Below, in pieces: positions 47,008 to 54,291 of a DNA stretch of 64,000 bases. The notes under the pieces were generated by a model. It was not told where the DNA came from. It saw only the letters and a list, made by a program, of their open reading frames with translations, and did no database searches. The position numbers and the translations under genes are program-made. This DNA is from Methylophilus rhizosphaerae (lineage in GTDB: Bacteria > Pseudomonadota > Gammaproteobacteria > Burkholderiales > Methylophilaceae), in assembly GCF_900100975.1 (NCBI RefSeq), contig NZ_FNFX01000002.1, forward strand, positions 62,001-126,000, in the 5' to 3' direction. Every line of letters starts with the position of its first letter. Positions within the stretch are counted from its first letter, which is position 1.

Positions 47008-47721
47008 ATGGCTGGCATTTTATATTTCATCCCCGTTCCCTTGGCTGAAGGCACAACTCCACAACAAGTACTTCCAGCCGAAGTGGTAGAACGCATGCAT
47101 AGCCTGCGCCACTTTATTGTCGAGAACGAAAAAACCGCTCGCCAGTTCCTCTCGGCCAGCGGTCATCCGGTACCTATTCGCGAATTAACCTTTAGTGTGC
47201 TGAATAAAGACACACCACCAAAAGACCTGCCCTCCTTATTGCAGCCACTGCAACAAGGCACAGATATTGGCTTGATGAGCGAGGCTGGCTGTCCAGGCAT
47301 TGCCGATCCGGGCGCTGCATTAGCCGCCGTCGCGCACCACAAAGGCATACGCGTAGCCCCTTTAATCGGCCCCAGCAGTTTGCTATTGGGGTTAATGGCC
47401 AGCGGCCTCAATGGTCAACGTTTTACGTTTCTGGGTTACTTGCCCAGCGATAAAGCCGAACGCATCAAAACCATCAAAGGCATTGAGTTTGACTCGAGGA
47501 AACAGCAGGCCACACAACTGTTTATCGAAACGCCCTACCGCAACCAGCATATGCTGGAAGACCTGGTTGCCAACCTGCAGCCGCAAACCAAGTTGTGTGT
47601 AGCCTGCAATATCACAGCACAGAATGAATTGATTGTGACAAAAACTGCAGCTGAGTGGAAGAAATCACCTTTGCCGGATGTCCATAAGAAACCGACAGTA
47701 TTCCTATTACTTGCAGCCTAG
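47008..47721 (+). CDS. RsmI-like tetrapyrrole-methylase-family SAM-dependent methyltransferase
   Basis: A 237-residue protein of the fold shared by RsmI and the cobalamin methyltransferases. It has the first-strand LYFIPVPLAEG, GLMSEAGCPGIADPGA and VAPLIGPSSLLLGLMASGLNGQRFTFLGYLP, typical of RsmI (16S rRNA C1402 2'-O-methylation). It is shorter than RsmI (about 286) and the first motif deviates, so it is probably a paralogue with another RNA or unknown substrate. Confidence 0.8.
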   Translation: MAGILYFIPVPLAEGTTPQQVLPAEVVERMHSLRHFIVENEKTARQFLSASGHPVPIRELTFSVLNKDTPPKDLPSLLQPLQQGTDIGLMSEAGCPGIADPGAALAAVAHHKGIRVAPLIGPSSLLLGLMASGLNGQRFTFLGYLPSDKAERIKTIKGIEFDSRKQQATQLFIETPYRNQHMLEDLVANLQPQTKLCVACNITAQNELIVTKTAAEWKKSPLPDVHKKPTVFLLLAA

Positions 47722-47734
47722 TTTTTGCCGTAAC

Positions 47735-47764
47735 AAAAAGCCCCGATTCTAACGGAGCTTTTTC
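47735..47764. terminator. Terminator after the RsmI-like gene
   Basis: AAAAAGCCCCG and CGGAGCTTTTT arms, one mismatch, with T and A runs on both sides. Confidence 0.8.
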
Positions 47765-47767
47765 TAT

Positions 47768-48112
47768 TCAAATAAAACGGCAACGAATGATTACGAAAAT
47801 CAATCCAAAACCGGCCAACATCATTGAGTAACTCTCAGCTTCAAGTACTGCTGATGCTGAAAGAGAAATACGAGGCTCCTGTATAACAGAGCCACAGACG
47901 ACAATGCCTCCAAACGATATTACCTGAATAGTGTCTCCATTGTTGCTGATGCCGTCGATTAAAGACACCTCGCCATTTTGGACCCTATTCGAAACACTAC
48001 AGCTTGGTGAAGGGTTTGAGATGCTTAAGCCGGCACCGTTACCTAACTTAATAGCAGTAGAGTTGCTTTTAAGGGTTTCATCGTCAGTCCTGCTTTTAGT
48101 TTTTCTTAACAA
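47768..48112 (-). pseudogene. Remnant of a PEP-CTERM surface protein
   Basis: A 114-residue frame with no ATG start (only TTG, no ribosome site). Its C-terminus, VLEAESYSMMLAGFGLIFVIIRCRFI split as LEAESYSMMLAGFG then LIFVIIRCRFI, is a PEP-CTERM sorting tail: the Pro-Glu-Pro box has become L-E-A-E, followed by the usual MMLAGLGL-type helix and basic end. The body looks like a beta-rich fragment. In-frame stop upstream at 48137. It is read as the decayed 3' end of a PEP-CTERM/exosortase substrate gene. No exosortase is in the window. Confidence 0.6.
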
Positions 48113-48157
48113 AAGAAAATACCAGAAATGTGATGATTAAAAGGTGATGATTTAATG

Positions 48158-48190
48158 AAAAAAGACCAAGCCGCCTGAGTTTACTTGGTC
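48158..48190 (-). terminator. Terminator of the SDR/aldo-keto reductase operon
   Basis: GACCAAG and CTTGGTC arms with a 13-base loop, followed on the minus strand by six T, 27 bases behind the aldo-keto reductase stop. Confidence 0.82.
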
Positions 48191-48216
48191 CTTTCTCGAT
48201 GTAAAACTTAAGCCTA

Positions 48217-49080
48217 TTAAGCCAACGCCTTATAGGCGTTTGCCAGCAGTTCAAAATCCTCATCAGCTAAATGAATATTCATCGCCTGCATATTTTCTTC
48301 AAAATGCTTAACCTTGCTAGTGCCCGGAATTGGCAATATCATTGGACTGCGTTTCAATAACCACGCAATGGCAATCTGGTTAGGTGTAGCTTCATATTTC
48401 TGTGCAGCCAAACCTAACGTATCCAATTTACCAGCCAGTGCATTCTTGGCTAATGGGTACCACGGAATAAAAATAACGTTATTGGCAGTACAATAATCCA
48501 ATTCCTGCTCATATTGCCGATTGAGCAAATTGAATTGGTTTTGCACCGTATCCACCTTGAAGTATTTTTGCGCCTCTTTAATATCTTCAACGTTCACTTC
48601 ACTTAAGCCAATGTGCTTTATCAGACCTTCATTTTGAAACTCTGCAACCGCCTGGAACTGCTCATCTCTTGGCACTTTGGGGTCAATTCTGTGCAATTGC
48701 CATAAATCGATCTGCTCTAAATTTAACCTACGCAGACTCATCAGCAATGACTGACGCAAATATTCCGGCCGACCTACTGGTGCCCATAAATTCGGGCCTT
48801 GCCTGGTTAAGCCAGCTTTGGTTGCAATCGTGAGCCCTTTGTATAGATGCAAAGCGTCACGAATCAACTCTTCGCTGACATTCGGGCCATAACTATCTGC
48901 GGTATCGATAAAGTTAACGCCCAACTCAGGCAGCCTACGCAGCAATTCAAGACAATGCGCCGGATCATTTGGTTGCCCCCACACCCCTGCCCCAGTAATA
49001 CGCATAGAGCCAAAACCAATTCGGTAAAGCTGGCGATCGCCCAAAGCAACGTGGGTTTGTATCGTGTTCAGTTCAGACAT
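48217..49080 (-). CDS. Aldo/keto reductase
   Basis: A 287-residue NAD(P)H-dependent (alpha/beta)8 oxidoreductase. The catalytic tetrad can be traced: Asp and Tyr in FIDTADSYGP, Lys in IATKAGL, His in LWQLHRID. The C-terminal cofactor motif reads ILPIPGTSKVKHFEEN. It follows the SDR gene by 22 bases. Substrate unknown; small aldehydes are plausible. Confidence 0.92.
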   Translation of the reverse strand: MSELNTIQTHVALGDRQLYRIGFGSMRITGAGVWGQPNDPAHCLELLRRLPELGVNFIDTADSYGPNVSEELIRDALHLYKGLTIATKAGLTRQGPNLWAPVGRPEYLRQSLLMSLRRLNLEQIDLWQLHRIDPKVPRDEQFQAVAEFQNEGLIKHIGLSEVNVEDIKEAQKYFKVDTVQNQFNLLNRQYEQELDYCTANNVIFIPWYPLAKNALAGKLDTLGLAAQKYEATPNQIAIAWLLKRSPMILPIPGTSKVKHFEENMQAMNIHLADEDFELLANAYKALA

Positions 49081-49102
49081 AAGAGCAACCTTTTCCTAAA
49101 TG

Positions 49103-49900
49103 TTATGAAGCAAGACCATAGCGGCTGCCAGGTTTTGCATTGGCAAACTTTGGAGTCAATGCACGGCGTGCAGTTTCCCATTGTTCCCAATCCTGATTAT
49201 CTTGCAATGGTGGAATCGTCACCAGTTCGCCATTATCCAGGCCAGCCAGTGCAGCATCTACCAAGTCCTCTGCGCTCATTGTGGTTGGCGCTTCTTTCAC
49301 TTTTGCGTAACCAGCCACATCCCAGAACTCGGTGGCAGTGCCGCCAGGCAATACGGTTTGAATACGCACACCTTTGTCAGCCAGGTCTTTTTGCAGAGAA
49401 TGACCAAAACTGAGCACATAAGATTTTGAAGCGCTGTAAACGCCGTTGAGCAATTCAATCGCAATGCCAACAACAGACGCAATATTGATAATTGTGCCAC
49501 TACCTTTTGCCGCAAATACCGGCGCAATTGCATAAGTCAAACGTGTCAACGCAGTGATATTCAAATCAATCATTGCTGTCATTTCATCCACATCCGCATC
49601 CAGAATAGAAGCCACAGAACCAATACCAGCATTATTTACCAGCATAGTGATGTCTTTATGTTCCTTCAGGATTTTCTCGAGTTCGCCCAGCGCTTTCTTG
49701 TCATTCAAATCAGCGCCTATGCTCGTGACCTTCACACCAGTTTCTTTGGTCAATCGTTCAGCCAGCGTATTCAGGCGATCAATATTTCTGGCCACTAAAA
49801 TCAAGTCGTAGCCTCTTTTTGCCAAACGGTCAGCATATACCGCACCAATGCCTGTCGATGCGCCAGTGACTACTGCAGTGCCTTTATTCGTAGATGTCAT
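49103..49900 (-). CDS. Short-chain dehydrogenase/reductase
   Basis: A 265-residue classical SDR: cofactor motif TGASTGIGAVYADRLAKRG, NNAGIG, catalytic Ser in NIASVVG and Tyr/Lys in VYSASKSYV. It is first in an operon with the aldo-keto reductase and divergent to a GlxA-type regulator, which probably controls both. Substrate unknown. Confidence 0.93.
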   Translation of the reverse strand: MTSTNKGTAVVTGASTGIGAVYADRLAKRGYDLILVARNIDRLNTLAERLTKETGVKVTSIGADLNDKKALGELEKILKEHKDITMLVNNAGIGSVASILDADVDEMTAMIDLNITALTRLTYAIAPVFAAKGSGTIINIASVVGIAIELLNGVYSASKSYVLSFGHSLQKDLADKGVRIQTVLPGGTATEFWDVAGYAKVKEAPTTMSAEDLVDAALAGLDNGELVTIPPLQDNQDWEQWETARRALTPKFANAKPGSRYGLAS

Positions 49901-49986
49901 GTTATTTCTCCAGATAAAAATGTGTGTTGGTTTGTATTACGAAGCGCATTTTGATCTTGAGACAAAATATCATCAATGACATATAT

Positions 49987-50047
49987 ACAATGTTTTATGC
50001 CATTACTGCAATTTTCACTTTATTTTTAATTAGACATTGTTTTATGC
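49987..50047. promoter_or_regulatory. Direct repeats in the SDR/GlxA-type divergent region
   Basis: ACAATGTTTTATGC at 49987-50000 and ACATTGTTTTATGC at 50034-50047 differ in one of 14 bases and are 47 bases apart. They lie in the 244-base AT-rich region between divergent genes. AraC-type regulators bind direct repeats, so these are candidate sites for the adjacent regulator. Confidence 0.5.
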
Positions 50048-50144
50048 TAACCATATTAATCATTAGCTATTAACCATGAGTGGAATGAATGGCATATTTG
50101 ATACTTATAAAATAATTTATGCCACTCAAGAATAAAGGAAATAT

Positions 50145-51095
50145 ATGCATACGATAGGTTTGTTGGTCTTTCCAAACTTTCAAGCACTAGGCCTAGCGGT
50201 TTCAGCCGTCTTTGAATATGCCAACCTGATGCATCCTGAAAAAACCTACCATTTCCGCCTGGTGTCAGAACATGGAGGCCCGGTTATGACTTCGCAAACA
50301 TTTTCGGTCAATACCGAACGGCTCACTGACTCCACTTACGACACACTGATTGTAGGCGGCGATAATGATTGCAAACTGCCCTCTCCTGAGCTGCTGAACT
50401 ATCTACGTGAATCACCCAAACATATCAGGAGAATCGCAGCCATTTGTACTGGCGCATTTATTCTGGCAGAAGCAGGATTACTGGATGGCAAACGCGCCAC
50501 CACGCACTGGCTGCATTCAAATGCATTCAGGAAGTTCTACCCAAAAGTACAACTAGATGAAGACAAGATTTTTGTGACTGATGGTCAGATCTGGACTTCG
50601 GCGGGCTTAACCGCAGGCATTGATCTGGCATTAGCAATTGTAGAAAAAGACCTTGGTCTGGATGTAGCCAGGCAAATCGCCCGTAAATTAGTCATTCATC
50701 AGCGGCGTGGCGGCGGCCAATCCCAGTTTTCAACGCTATTAGAGCTAGACGCAAAATCTGATCGCGTGCAAATGGTGCTTTCCTATGTCAAAGAAAATCT
50801 GAAAGCTGATTTATCCGTTGAATCCTTGGCAGAAGTCGCAAACCTGAGCCCGCGCCAGTTTAGCCGTGTGTTTACCGAAGAAACAGGCTTGCCACCGGCT
50901 AAAGCTGTCGAACGGCTACGTGTAGAGTCAGCAAGGTTAATGATGGAAACAGGCCACCATCAAATTGAAATCATCGCCCGCGAAACAGGATTTGGTGACC
51001 GTGAACGTATGCGGCAGGCGTTTCTAAGGGCTTATGGGCAGTCACCACAATCTATACAGAGAATTTCGGCGGGTAGTGCTCGGCCGTCAATGTAA
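50145..51095 (+). CDS. GlxA-family AraC-type transcriptional regulator with DJ-1/PfpI domain
   Basis: A 316-residue regulator. The N-terminal DJ-1/PfpI-like domain (IGLLVFPNFQALGL, AAICTGAFILAEAGLLDGKRATTHW, with the elbow cysteine) is fused to a C-terminal AraC double helix-turn-helix (VESLAEVANLSPRQFSRVFTEE and ETGFGDRERMRQAFLRAYGQSP). It probably controls the divergent SDR/aldo-keto reductase pair in response to a small metabolite. ATG preceded by AAAGGAAATAT. Confidence 0.92.
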   Translation: MHTIGLLVFPNFQALGLAVSAVFEYANLMHPEKTYHFRLVSEHGGPVMTSQTFSVNTERLTDSTYDTLIVGGDNDCKLPSPELLNYLRESPKHIRRIAAICTGAFILAEAGLLDGKRATTHWLHSNAFRKFYPKVQLDEDKIFVTDGQIWTSAGLTAGIDLALAIVEKDLGLDVARQIARKLVIHQRRGGGQSQFSTLLELDAKSDRVQMVLSYVKENLKADLSVESLAEVANLSPRQFSRVFTEETGLPPAKAVERLRVESARLMMETGHHQIEIIARETGFGDRERMRQAFLRAYGQSPQSIQRISAGSARPSM

Positions 51096-51134
51096 TTAAG
51101 TATGGTGGCGAATAGCTGAACCAATCAAAAATGA

Positions 51135-51632
51135 TTAGGATTTATCAGCCTTGAGAAGCCGACGGATAGCAATTACAACCACACCGAATATAGCAGCCAG
51201 TATGCAAAAGAGATGTAACTCCCCAAGCGAAAAGAAGCGATATAGCGAATTAGCATTGCTAAAGGGTGAAAGTGGAGCGATATCAGCATGCATCACACTA
51301 TCGAACACAATGTGAGAATAACTGCCCATCCCGGCTCCCAGCCAGATAGAAAGTGAGCTTAAGTTTTGCCATTGAAATAAATTAGGCAACTTGATTTTTG
51401 AAGCCAAATTTAACGCGCCAAAGAAAATAAGTGTAGTCACAACCATGACGATGGTTGCGCCGATGTAAGTATGAAAAAACCGATGTAAAGGATATTGCCC
51501 AGTGACCATGTAATATAGCGGCTCAATATCAATCAACACATTGGCTGAACAAAAAGCTAAGAAACTTACCCGCTTAGGTGCAATCGCATGAATGGCTGCA
51601 CCTGGGCCGAAATGAAAAGGGGTTATGGGCAT
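51135..51632 (-). CDS. Small membrane protein, DUF4184/YdjM-like (cassette gene)
   Basis: A 165-residue protein with four hydrophobic segments. The start MPITPFHFGPGAAIHA and later HIVFDSVMHADIAPLSPF recall membrane-bound metal-dependent hydrolase-like families with conserved His/Asp. The ATG is 2 bases after an attC site, the position expected of a cassette gene. Its own downstream attC is not recognisable; only the short inverted repeat AATC...GATT at about 51123-51137 is seen. It may be the last cassette of the array. Confidence 0.75.
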   Translation of the reverse strand: MPITPFHFGPGAAIHAIAPKRVSFLAFCSANVLIDIEPLYYMVTGQYPLHRFFHTYIGATIVMVVTTLIFFGALNLASKIKLPNLFQWQNLSSLSIWLGAGMGSYSHIVFDSVMHADIAPLSPFSNANSLYRFFSLGELHLFCILAAIFGVVVIAIRRLLKADKS

Positions 51633-51634
51633 TT

Positions 51635-51705
51635 GTCTAACCTAATGCTAAGTTAAAAGGCAATCATACGCAGTATAGGCATCCCTGTTGAAAGACCAGT
51701 TAGGC
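51635..51705 (-). repeat. attC-like recombination site A
   Basis: On the plus strand the 71-base site runs from GTCTAAC to GTTAGGC, perfect matches to RYYYAAC and GTTRRRY and nearly complementary to each other. The inner arms pair only partly. It lies between two cassette genes. Confidence 0.75.
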
Positions 51706-51730
51706 TGATGTGCAAAAAGATGTGCGCCTT

Positions 51731-52366
51731 TCACAAATTGTGTGTCCAGCCTATTGCTGTTAGTTGATAGTTAACCGTTGGATGCGAAAAACTGACGTAA
51801 ATTTCTGGGCCTTGAGTTAGCATAATTTCTATAACTCCGGAAGGACCTGAGTACTCAAGCATGGCAGCGTCTTCTGGATAATAGGAAATTCGAATTAGTA
51901 AGGGCGCACCATGAAGCTCACTCCATAAACGGAACTGCAATTTTATAAAGCTTGCTGTTGGTGGGAAATAAGAGCTTACATCGATTTTTTGGCGGGGCGT
52001 CCATTGGAGTGAATGGTGTTGGCGATCTGAATGGGCAACTCGTTCGCCTGGCTTTGAGTTTGGACGCAACCACAGTTTTGGACCTTGCGTGAATATTTGA
52101 ACCTTAAGCATAAGAAACCCATACTTAACTCCCTCTTTTGAACGAGAAGGATTGGTTCGGTAGTCATAGACATGATCCTTCCCCAATTCTGCTATGTGGT
52201 TAGTGACTAAATTGCGGAGCGTTATTACTTCTCCTGGTCCAATCGACTCAATGAGCCAGTCGTCAAAACTATCTGGCATGACAAGTCCTAGTTCGTTCAG
52301 GTTGCATGCCGGCGGCTCAATTTGAAATCGCATGCCAATGTTTTTTTGGAATTGCGCCCAATTCAC
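51731..52366 (-). CDS. Hypothetical protein (cassette gene)
   Basis: A 211-residue soluble protein with no signal peptide or membrane helix that I do not recognise. The second half (DVSSYFPPTASFIKLQFRLW, LIRISYYPEDAAMLEYSG, VIEIMLTQGPEIYVSF) is beta-rich. It is flanked by attC-like sites on both sides, which supports it being a real mobile cassette gene. Confidence 0.7.
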   Translation of the reverse strand: MNWAQFQKNIGMRFQIEPPACNLNELGLVMPDSFDDWLIESIGPGEVITLRNLVTNHIAELGKDHVYDYRTNPSRSKEGVKYGFLMLKVQIFTQGPKLWLRPNSKPGERVAHSDRQHHSLQWTPRQKIDVSSYFPPTASFIKLQFRLWSELHGAPLLIRISYYPEDAAMLEYSGPSGVIEIMLTQGPEIYVSFSHPTVNYQLTAIGWTHNL

Positions 52367-52392
52367 TCAGAGCATCCTTTAGTGTGTTTACA

Positions 52393-52451
52393 GACTAACG
52401 TTTGAATTAAGAGGCGCGCTTTAGCGCGTCCGCTTCAATGATAGGTTAGAG
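52393..52451 (-). repeat. attC-like recombination site B (59 bases)
   Basis: GACTAAC to GTTAGAG, exactly 59 bases, with a central near-palindrome GGCGCGCTTTAGCGCGTCC. The stop codon of the upstream gene lies inside the GTTAGAG end. Near-copy of site C. Confidence 0.82.
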
Positions 52452-52820
52452 CGAAGCAAGATATGCAGAATAACATTTAGCAACATTCTTAGCTCCAAAA
52501 CAACGAAATCTAAACTCTCCACCATCATGCTCAATAACAACAATGCCAGTCAGCCATCCAAATTCTCGACGTACCGAGCGGATTTTATTTATCGGGACCT
52601 GTGCTTTTATGGAGCCTGAATGTAGCATTCTATTCAGCGCATTGGCACTAAAAAATACACCTTTATCAGTAAGCTCTACAACCCCACCAACCCAAATGCC
52701 GCCATGATTTTTTCTGTACCTTTCAACTATATCTAGAGCAACAACGCCAACTTTTTCTGAAGGTCTATATTGCGCACTAAATTTATTGGCAAGTTTTCGA
52801 ATTCTGAATTCTTGTGTCAT
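52446..52820 (-). CDS. Hypothetical protein, PH/GRAM-like (cassette gene)
   Basis: A 124-residue protein with a predicted compact beta-barrel like PH or GRAM domains: VELTDKGVFFSANALNRML, QVPINKIRSVRREFG, GIVVIEHDGGEFRFRCFGAK. No catalytic motif is seen. The start is 5 bases after attC site C and its stop TAA is within site B, the standard cassette arrangement. Function unknown. Confidence 0.75.
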   Translation of the reverse strand: MTQEFRIRKLANKFSAQYRPSEKVGVVALDIVERYRKNHGGIWVGGVVELTDKGVFFSANALNRMLHSGSIKAQVPINKIRSVRREFGWLTGIVVIEHDGGEFRFRCFGAKNVAKCYSAYLASL

Positions 52821-52825
52821 ACAGG

Positions 52826-52885
52826 CTCTAACGTTTGATATGAGGGGCGCGTTTTAGCGCGTCCCACTTGATGGATGCGTTAGCC
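52826..52885 (-). repeat. attC-like recombination site C (60 bases)
   Basis: CTCTAAC to GTTAGCC with the central GGGCGCGTTTTAGCGCGTCC, near-identical to site B in the inner part. It begins right before one cassette gene and ends 10 bases after the stop of the next. Confidence 0.82.
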
Positions 52886-52895
52886 ATGGTTTACA

Positions 52896-53174
52896 TTAAT
52901 TTGATTGATTTTGATATGTCAGAAGGCAATAGTACGGCGGATTTTTTTCATTTTTTAGAAATTCACAGCCTCGTTTGATCTCATCGGTAATTAAGTTACA
53001 GGCATTTAATGAATTACATGGCGGATGAGTGGCTGGACTAACGTTGATACACCAATTAACTAATATTTGAGATTGTTTTTTGCCTAGTTCGGCAGCACAA
53101 CTCTTTTCCTCAGCACTTGCATTGTAAGTAAGCATAAAAGAGAAAAGAGCAATCAATATACTAAGAAATTTCAT
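52896..53174 (-). CDS. Small secreted cysteine-rich protein (cassette gene)
   Basis: A 92-residue protein with a clear signal peptide (cleavage after ASA, residue 21) and six cysteines in the mature part (C26, C42, C53, C59, C70, C83), suggesting three disulfides and a periplasmic or exported location. I recognise no family. It follows a degenerate attC-like end by 16 bases. Cys-rich exported proteins are common among integron cassettes. Confidence 0.75.
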   Translation of the reverse strand: MKFLSILIALFSFMLTYNASAEEKSCAAELGKKQSQILVNWCINVSPATHPPCNSLNACNLITDEIKRGCEFLKNEKNPPYYCLLTYQNQSN

Positions 53175-53190
53175 AAATATCCTAGTTAAT

Positions 53191-53238
53191 GACTAACGTA
53201 AGATATACACCGAAATAGATGTATAACTTGTAAATAGT
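53191..53238 (-). repeat. Possible degenerate attC site D
   Basis: GACTAAC, the same end as site B, is followed by AAGATATACA and, after ten bases, TGTATAACTT as an inverted repeat, but the far end reads TGTAAATAG instead of GTTAG. It may be a worn attC or the relict edge of the array. Confidence 0.45.
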
Positions 53239-53355
53239 AAAAACTGATTTCGCATCATCGTTGTATTATAAGTATTTGATCTAAAAATAACTCTACTCTC
53301 TCTTAAACACATTACCCCGCAGCGGTTATATCGCAATCGCTGTAAGCACTTAGTA

Positions 53356-54291
53356 TTACTTAATTTGCTTATTCGCAACGCCAAATGGAATATGTACCAT
53401 TGGAATATCTCCAGCAGAAGATTTCAAATGGCTACGCTGATCATCAAAAAACATATGCGGCTTTAACACCGAGAGAATTCTGGCTTTTTCCATCCCTCCC
53501 AGGAAAAATGACTCATCGGCGGAAACGCCCCACTCTTTTAGCGTCGTGACGACTCGTTCATGTGATGGCGCATTGCGGGCTGTAACAATGGCGATGCGGA
53601 GTATTTTTTTATAATCGGGATTTTCTTGCAGCAGTTTATCTTCCAGCTGTTGCATATAAGATAGTTTTTTAAACAGGTCAGCCAAAGGCCCGGCTTGGTG
53701 CGGGATAGCTTGCTTCTCGACCTCATGCGCTTCAAGCTCGCCTAGGTCATTATTCTTTTTGAATACAGTTTCAGCTTCGTCATCGGCAATCACACCATCA
53801 AAGTCAAACGCTATTCTCAACTCAGTGTCAGCTTCATCATCATAGACTTTTGATGGCAGAACCACGCCTGCTGGATAATCTAAATCAATCGCACTTTGTA
53901 CATCTTCTTCATTAGCGCTCAAGAATAGTGATGTATTGAACGCTGGAATATATTCATGCGGAGACCTGCCGGTCATAAAACTGGCGCGGGTGATGTCCAG
54001 CCCGTAATGCCTGATTGATCTGAAAACTCTAAGCCCGGTTTCTGGTGAGTTTCTGGATAGCAGCACAACTTCTACTGGCAACTCTTCAGGAAATGCCTCG
54101 TTAATTGCCAGAAATCTGCGGATAAAGGGAAATGCCACGCCTTTGGGAAATGGAACATCAAGATTTTCTTCTTGATGTCTCCGGTATTCCTCTACGCCTT
54201 GCGTCTTATAAACCTCATGTGATTCTGTTAAATCAAATAAGGCGCTGGAAGCAACACTAATCACTAATTTTTTATCGATTGGATAAGCCAT
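53356..54291 (-). CDS. 5'-nucleotidase (PF06189 type)
   Basis: A 311-residue protein of the cytosolic 5'-nucleotidase family, which removes phosphate from nucleoside monophosphates. The haloacid-dehalogenase-type motif IAFDFDGVIADDEAE lies near residue 160 and the family N-terminus PIDKKLVISVASSALFDL is present; the C-terminus has FFLGGMEKARIL and MFFDDQRSHL. The gene is 39 bases downstream of mutL on the same strand. Confidence 0.9.
   Translation of the reverse strand: MAYPIDKKLVISVASSALFDLTESHEVYKTQGVEEYRRHQEENLDVPFPKGVAFPFIRRFLAINEAFPEELPVEVVLLSRNSPETGLRVFRSIRHYGLDITRASFMTGRSPHEYIPAFNTSLFLSANEEDVQSAIDLDYPAGVVLPSKVYDDEADTELRIAFDFDGVIADDEAETVFKKNNDLGELEAHEVEKQAIPHQAGPLADLFKKLSYMQQLEDKLLQENPDYKKILRIAIVTARNAPSHERVVTTLKEWGVSADESFFLGGMEKARILSVLKPHMFFDDQRSHLKSSAGDIPMVHIPFGVANKQIK

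Follow-up and report, generated by a model that had tools for sequence, protein, structure and literature searches.

Integrase-less cassette arrays are already known as relics of integrons. The part of PMC9024848 that deals with such arrays (CALINs) counts 2961 of them and says that they have been proposed to be degraded integrons. Decay of the integrase gene intI is common, and a section of PMC2426708 classes nearly a third of these genes as pseudogenes. In Xanthomonas, according to the relevant portion of PMC12444791, an ancestral integron lost its integrase in some lineages and arrays were left behind at several loci, with CALINs elsewhere. Excerpts of three papers bear on the Methylophilaceae and on Methylobacillus flagellatus: PMC11089894 mentions Methylophilaceae attC sites, a chromosomal integron with cassettes in M. 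flagellatus KT, found through its intI gene, is described in PMC2426708, and the portion of PMC10872708 on streamlined Methylophilaceae reports no bona fide integrons among the small insertions studied.

The array described here lies in a 64,000-nucleotide stretch (the window; G000:C8:62001-126000) of the draft genome of Methylophilus rhizosphaerae, which comprises 2.76 Mb in 10 contigs and is 99.99% complete. M. flagellatus KT presumably belongs to the same family (Methylophilaceae). With at least two attC sites in one orientation, no integrase nearby, and no functional intI as found in a complete integron, the array is formally a CALIN under the IntegronFinder definition, as given in parts of PMC9024848 and PMC12444791. 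It differs from an array so defined in keeping an attI-like head and in belonging to a genome that as a whole has no integrase over the cut-off. It resembles the Xanthomonas case, as far as the latter is set out in the portion of PMC12444791 cited above, in the loss of an integrase beside a surviving array, whereas the genus of the window genome keeps intI in 20 of its 21 other genomes. The integron of M. flagellatus KT was recognized by a gene that the window array does not have. The reading to which we assign a probability of roughly 0.78 is that the array is a decapitated sedentary chromosomal integron. What is new is the attI-like head on such an array, together with a genome that contains no integrase over the cut-off against the great majority of its congeners and that carries a second array with an intI stub.

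The array occupies 51.1-53.2 kb of the window, and its four small genes lie between a 5'-nucleotidase gene (53356-54291; PF06189 match in the family search) and a convergent gene for a GlxA/AraC-type regulator (50145-51095). These two labels come from family searches, and the labels mutL, rsmI, AKR, SDR, mutT/thiE, VOC, metY, Dam, and RelE were assigned by eye. All genes and all attC sites are on the minus strand and alternate. The attI-like head (53193-53229) is followed by cassette 1, which contains a 92-aa gene (52896-53174) with a signal-peptide-like start and six cysteines, as seen by eye, and ends in attC site C (52826-52885, 60 nt). Cassette 2 consists of a 124-aa gene (52446-52820), the product of which is weakly PH-like, and site B (52393-52451, 59 nt), with the stop codon of the gene inside the R'' box of B. 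Cassette 3 consists of a 211-aa gene with a GTG start (51731-52366) and the weak, atypical site A (51635-51705), which measures 71 nt from box to box and is matched by the covariance model at 51640-51705. Cassette 4 is a YdjM-like gene of 165 aa (51135-51632). The genes that follow sites A, C, and B start 2 nt (51632), 5 nt (52820), and 26 nt (52366) after them, respectively. An earlier note on this DNA, made from the sequence by itself, had described three attC-like sites of 59-71 bases separating four minus-strand genes, with gene ends and starts abutting the sites, and this layout is borne out. The head is an addition to that description, as is the state of the other end, where the attC model matched no site 3' of the last gene in the window. 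Since the YdjM-like copy has no attC after it, the far end of the array is eroded.

A scan of the window for strict consensus boxes with pairing arms missed A, B, and C and returned four other candidates; box patterns alone are thus no test for attC, and a covariance model was instead built from relatives. Its training set comprised 44 attC sites taken from arrays elsewhere in the family, with the genome under study excluded, and these sites were hand-picked for diversity from 119 candidates, 110 of which lie outside L107 and the own-genome stretch L108. In the whole window, only three matches were obtained at an E value of ≤10, all on the minus strand, namely, B (62 bits; E, 3.9e-14), C (60.7 bits; E, 8.7e-14), and A (17.2 bits; E, 0.029), with the scores of B and C somewhat flattered because the training arrays had been found using site B as the query. 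When the search was limited to positions 50400-53700 (3.3 kb, filters off), A reached an E value of 0.0015, and the next match was its own reverse strand, at 0.2. Folded as single-stranded DNA, the bottom strand of B had a z score of -3.11 (0 of 200 shuffles as good) and that of C one of -2.85 (4 of 200), but that of A folded no better than shuffles (z score, +1.5; 188 of 200 as good). The model search and the folding, both proposed in the earlier note as checks, speak strongly for B and C, and the model match of A is weak. Perfect ends, RYYYAAC and GTTRRRY, are found in A only, as had been noticed earlier; the same ends had also been ascribed to B and C, but each of their boxes breaks the consensus at one base (CTCTAAC/GTTAGTC in B and GGCTAAC/GTTAGAG in C). 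A search of the window against Rfam at the gathering threshold matched nothing, and we know of no attC family in Rfam. On the strength of model scores and folds, B and C are assigned as attC sites with certainty, and the perfect boxes, place, and score of A make it a probable third.

The head was recognized with a weight matrix for which other genomes supplied 29 attI sites, corresponding to 23 unique 25-mers. The matrix gave one strong match in the window, on the minus strand, with a score of 22.7 bits and the predicted recombination point in a GTTAG motif, the G of which is at 53197; the second-best match scored 9.3 bits. The best score in 200 windows simulated at first order was 18.2, and that in 60 block shuffles was 21.4, so that neither set reached the score of the window. 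Across the control loci (L001-L012 and L073-L104; 164 kb), the sole comparable match was at the same place, in a locus (L073) that overlaps the window, and the next scored 11.9. The GTTAG columns of the profile are also present in attC, and when these five columns were left out, the score was 13.1, which is the best in the window and not above the simulated maxima (mean, 13.9). Alignment provides a second line of evidence. Positions 53198-53229 are identical at 28 of 32 bases to the attI of an array in another genome of the genus (G021; L116), which was outside the training set, and none of 300 shuffles was as good; of seven heads, this one alone aligns with the window leader, the other six showing no alignment beyond that of shuffles. 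A promoter and terminator scan found fewer sites than in shuffles and no promoter-like site at the head. Judged from the profile and this alignment, 53193-53229 is probably an attI site. With an attI-like site at its head, the array looks like a decapitated integron, not like cassettes that landed by chance. Heads can thus be found with a clade-specific attI profile on arrays that would otherwise be listed only as CALINs.

The absence of an integrase gene, claimed in the earlier note for the window, extends to the whole genome. With TIGR02249 (integron integrase), nothing scored over the cut-off in the genome under study, where the best match (75 bits) is presumed to be of the Xer type, and all 14 control genomes were below the cut-off too. 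In contrast, 67 of 149 related genomes, a set that includes the one under study, have a match over the cut-off, and within the genus, the only other genome without one is G018, which is 80% complete and split into about 390 contigs. This genome is also the exception among the 22 genomes of the genus with regard to attC, model matches being found in the other 21 among the matches listed. At the window locus, tblastn with seven IntI proteins found no intI remnant (best E, 0.57). The genome contains a second array, at C10:545313-548965 (L108:7314-10966), with seven attC sites and an attI match of 19.4 bits, and the stretch beyond this attI (L108:6799-7027) aligns by tblastn to the N termini of all seven IntI proteins tried, over 39 to 61 residues with 44 to 60% identity and E values between 0.003 and 4e-8, and contains an in-frame stop. 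This N-terminal stub indicates that the integrase of the lineage appears to have decayed. The stub adjoins a mutT/thiE-like gene, as seen by eye.

Other arrays of the genus were compared in 17 fetched stretches (L107, L108, and L110-L124) of 9 to 19 kb each, so that an intI gene may lie farther off. An attI match of at least 14 bits is present in 13 of the 17 and not in L107, L118, L120, and L122, with L120 and L122 reaching a contig end. Ten of the 13 attI-bearing stretches also have an intI match. The remaining three are L108, with its stub, and L113 (from G012) and L116, with attI at L113:8247 and L116:10267, respectively. Part of the intI leader survives in L113, with weaker traces of it in L116, and both G012 and G021 have intI matches elsewhere in the genome. 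With attI and no intact intI in L108, L113, and L116, it seems that arrays of the genus have lost intI on more than one occasion while retaining attI.

G003, the nearest congener available, has a nucleotidase 90% identical to that of the window and keeps the anchors of the locus at ~81% DNA identity, an rsmI-like gene on one side and the nucleotidase and a mutL-like gene on the other (by eye, except for the nucleotidase). Synteny breaks at window positions 47715 and 53357, different genes lie between the anchors, and no attC was matched at this locus (L105). No part of window positions 47716-53356, including the AKR-like, SDR-like, and GlxA/AraC genes, has a blastn match there. G003 also has an intI gene without stops but with no attC in the surrounding 14 kb (L106), and on another contig it has a large array with many attC sites of ~110 bases and no attI match (L107).

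The earlier claim of a cassette array without an integrase therefore stands: the model matches, the lack of intI in the genome, and the intI genes and attC sites of the same type in congeners support it, as do the relatives of two cassette genes that adjoin attC elsewhere and the cassette-free locus of the closest relative. The search of related Methylophilaceae suggested at that time thus found both intI in congeners and a locus without these cassettes. Neither of the outcomes named in advance as speaking against an array, that is, no attC model match or the same four genes in fixed order without sites, was encountered in the genomes searched.

In integrons, the integrase captures cassettes at attI by way of folded attC strands. 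At the window locus, an integrase would once have inserted cassette circles at attI in the form of folded bottom-strand attC hairpins, with the newest cassette lying nearest 53197. The intI gene would then have been deleted, as at the second array, where an N-terminal stub is left, and the last cassette would have lost its attC. The cassettes may now be stably inherited as ordinary genes, movable only by an incoming integrase. Because the genome has no integrase over the cut-off and the stub is decayed, the array is probably frozen. The genome would represent a clean case of how integrase-less arrays may arise, with attI and a decaying integrase stub in one array, an attI-like head only in the other, and intI kept in congeners. 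This makes it possible to date the loss of the integrase and lets one ask whether selection keeps frozen cassettes.

Several other explanations have to be weighed against the loss of intI from a resident integron. That the hairpins are chance structures between unrelated small genes, with no link to integrons, would fit the poor fold of site A and the failure of the strict consensus scan to return any of the three sites, but with E values of 4e-14 and 9e-14, chance is ruled out for B and C, and relatives of the cassette genes are found in real arrays; the probability of this explanation is negligible. The cassettes may also have been placed in an ordinary chromosomal site of the attG type by an integrase acting in trans, at a locus that was never an integron and where the attI resemblance is accidental. 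Insertion at attG is described in parts of PMC12901181 and PMC12444791, no intI remnant is present at the window locus, and the closest relative has no integron there. However, the attI profile matches at the exact head of the array, and this head is identical to the attI of G021 at 28 of 32 bases, which makes such an origin quite improbable.

It is unlikely, but somewhat less so, that a piece of an integron, head included, arrived with foreign DNA by homologous recombination or on a mobile element and that an integrase was never present at the locus. The neighboring DNA at 48.2-51.1 kb, which contains aldo-keto reductase-like and short-chain dehydrogenase-like genes (by eye) and the GlxA/AraC-type regulator, belongs to the segment without a blastn match in the G003 locus; 60 other genomes contain no close relative of the regulator gene (best, 45%), and attC sites occur at several separate places in several genomes of the genus among the matches listed. 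On the other hand, no mobile-element gene was seen by eye in the list of open reading frames around the array. The arrays of the genus that have an attI head and no integrase of their own could, in an equally unlikely reading, be nonautonomous satellite integrons. Those of G012 and G021 would then keep attI and be served in trans by a single intI elsewhere in the genome, and the window array would have been left without a helper once no integrase remained in its genome. If so, shedding of the integrase gene while attI is retained would have occurred repeatedly and might be favored by selection. A resident integron that lost its own intI remains the preferred reading.

None of the products of the four cassette genes matched PHROGs or PADLOC at an E value of ≤0.1, and NCBIfam gave a single chance-level match for the four. 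Two of the genes, the YdjM-like and 124-aa genes, were found beside attC in arrays of other species, and the 92-aa and 211-aa genes were not. The 92-aa gene has relatives at six loci in five genomes, with identities of 54 to 63% in G031, G050, and G079 and weaker similarity in G102 and G126, and partial relatives on three plasmids. No attC was matched by the model at the six loci at an E value of ≤1, and none was seen by eye in the flanks of the four loci that lie within the family.

Searches of the other 148 genomes, plasmids, and phages found no match to the 211-aa gene. Its one relative, with 58% identity, lies in the terminal part of an IMG/VR contig (L152:4001-4627), at a locus where the model found no attC. 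The relative starts with MNWSQFQKN, against MNWAQFQKN in the window, which supports the GTG start. A Dam-like methylase gene, as judged by eye, lies near it. The structure predicted for the 211-aa protein had a pLDDT of 53, and sequence searches found no solved structure for this protein or the 124-aa protein at an E value of ≤1.

The 124-aa gene has a relative in G008 that is 75% identical over the first 59 residues and starts a few bases after an attC of 82 bits. Past residue 59, this copy runs into other sequence and is thus truncated. At L139:1501-2140 of the same genome, the truncated gene (to about codon 59) is followed by what looks by eye like a toxin-antitoxin pair of the ribbon-helix-helix/RelE type. 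Further relatives occur in Pseudomonas (50%) and on two plasmids. The 124-aa protein had no Pfam match at an E value of ≤1, and the earlier suggestion that it is PH-like is upheld only in tendency: the top Foldseek matches of the structure predicted from three sequences are mostly PH/PTB domains, but the best E value is 4e-3, none is ≤0.001, and the pLDDT is 47. The protein may thus be called weakly PH-like on the basis of the model.

The 165-aa protein matches PF04307 with 21.4 bits (E, 1.9e-4), which is below the curated cut-off of 29, and relatives of its gene are found in 8 genomes besides its own, of 149 searched, with none on viral contigs. At three of the eight loci, the model matches an attC directly 3' of the relative, which is 79% identical in G059 (where the site is weak, with an E value of 0.0075), 69% in G037, and 55% in G045; no attC was matched at the other five. 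In these three cases (L130, L131, and L132), which represent three genera, the attC site that follows the YdjM-like gene is a different one each time, as if it had been swapped.
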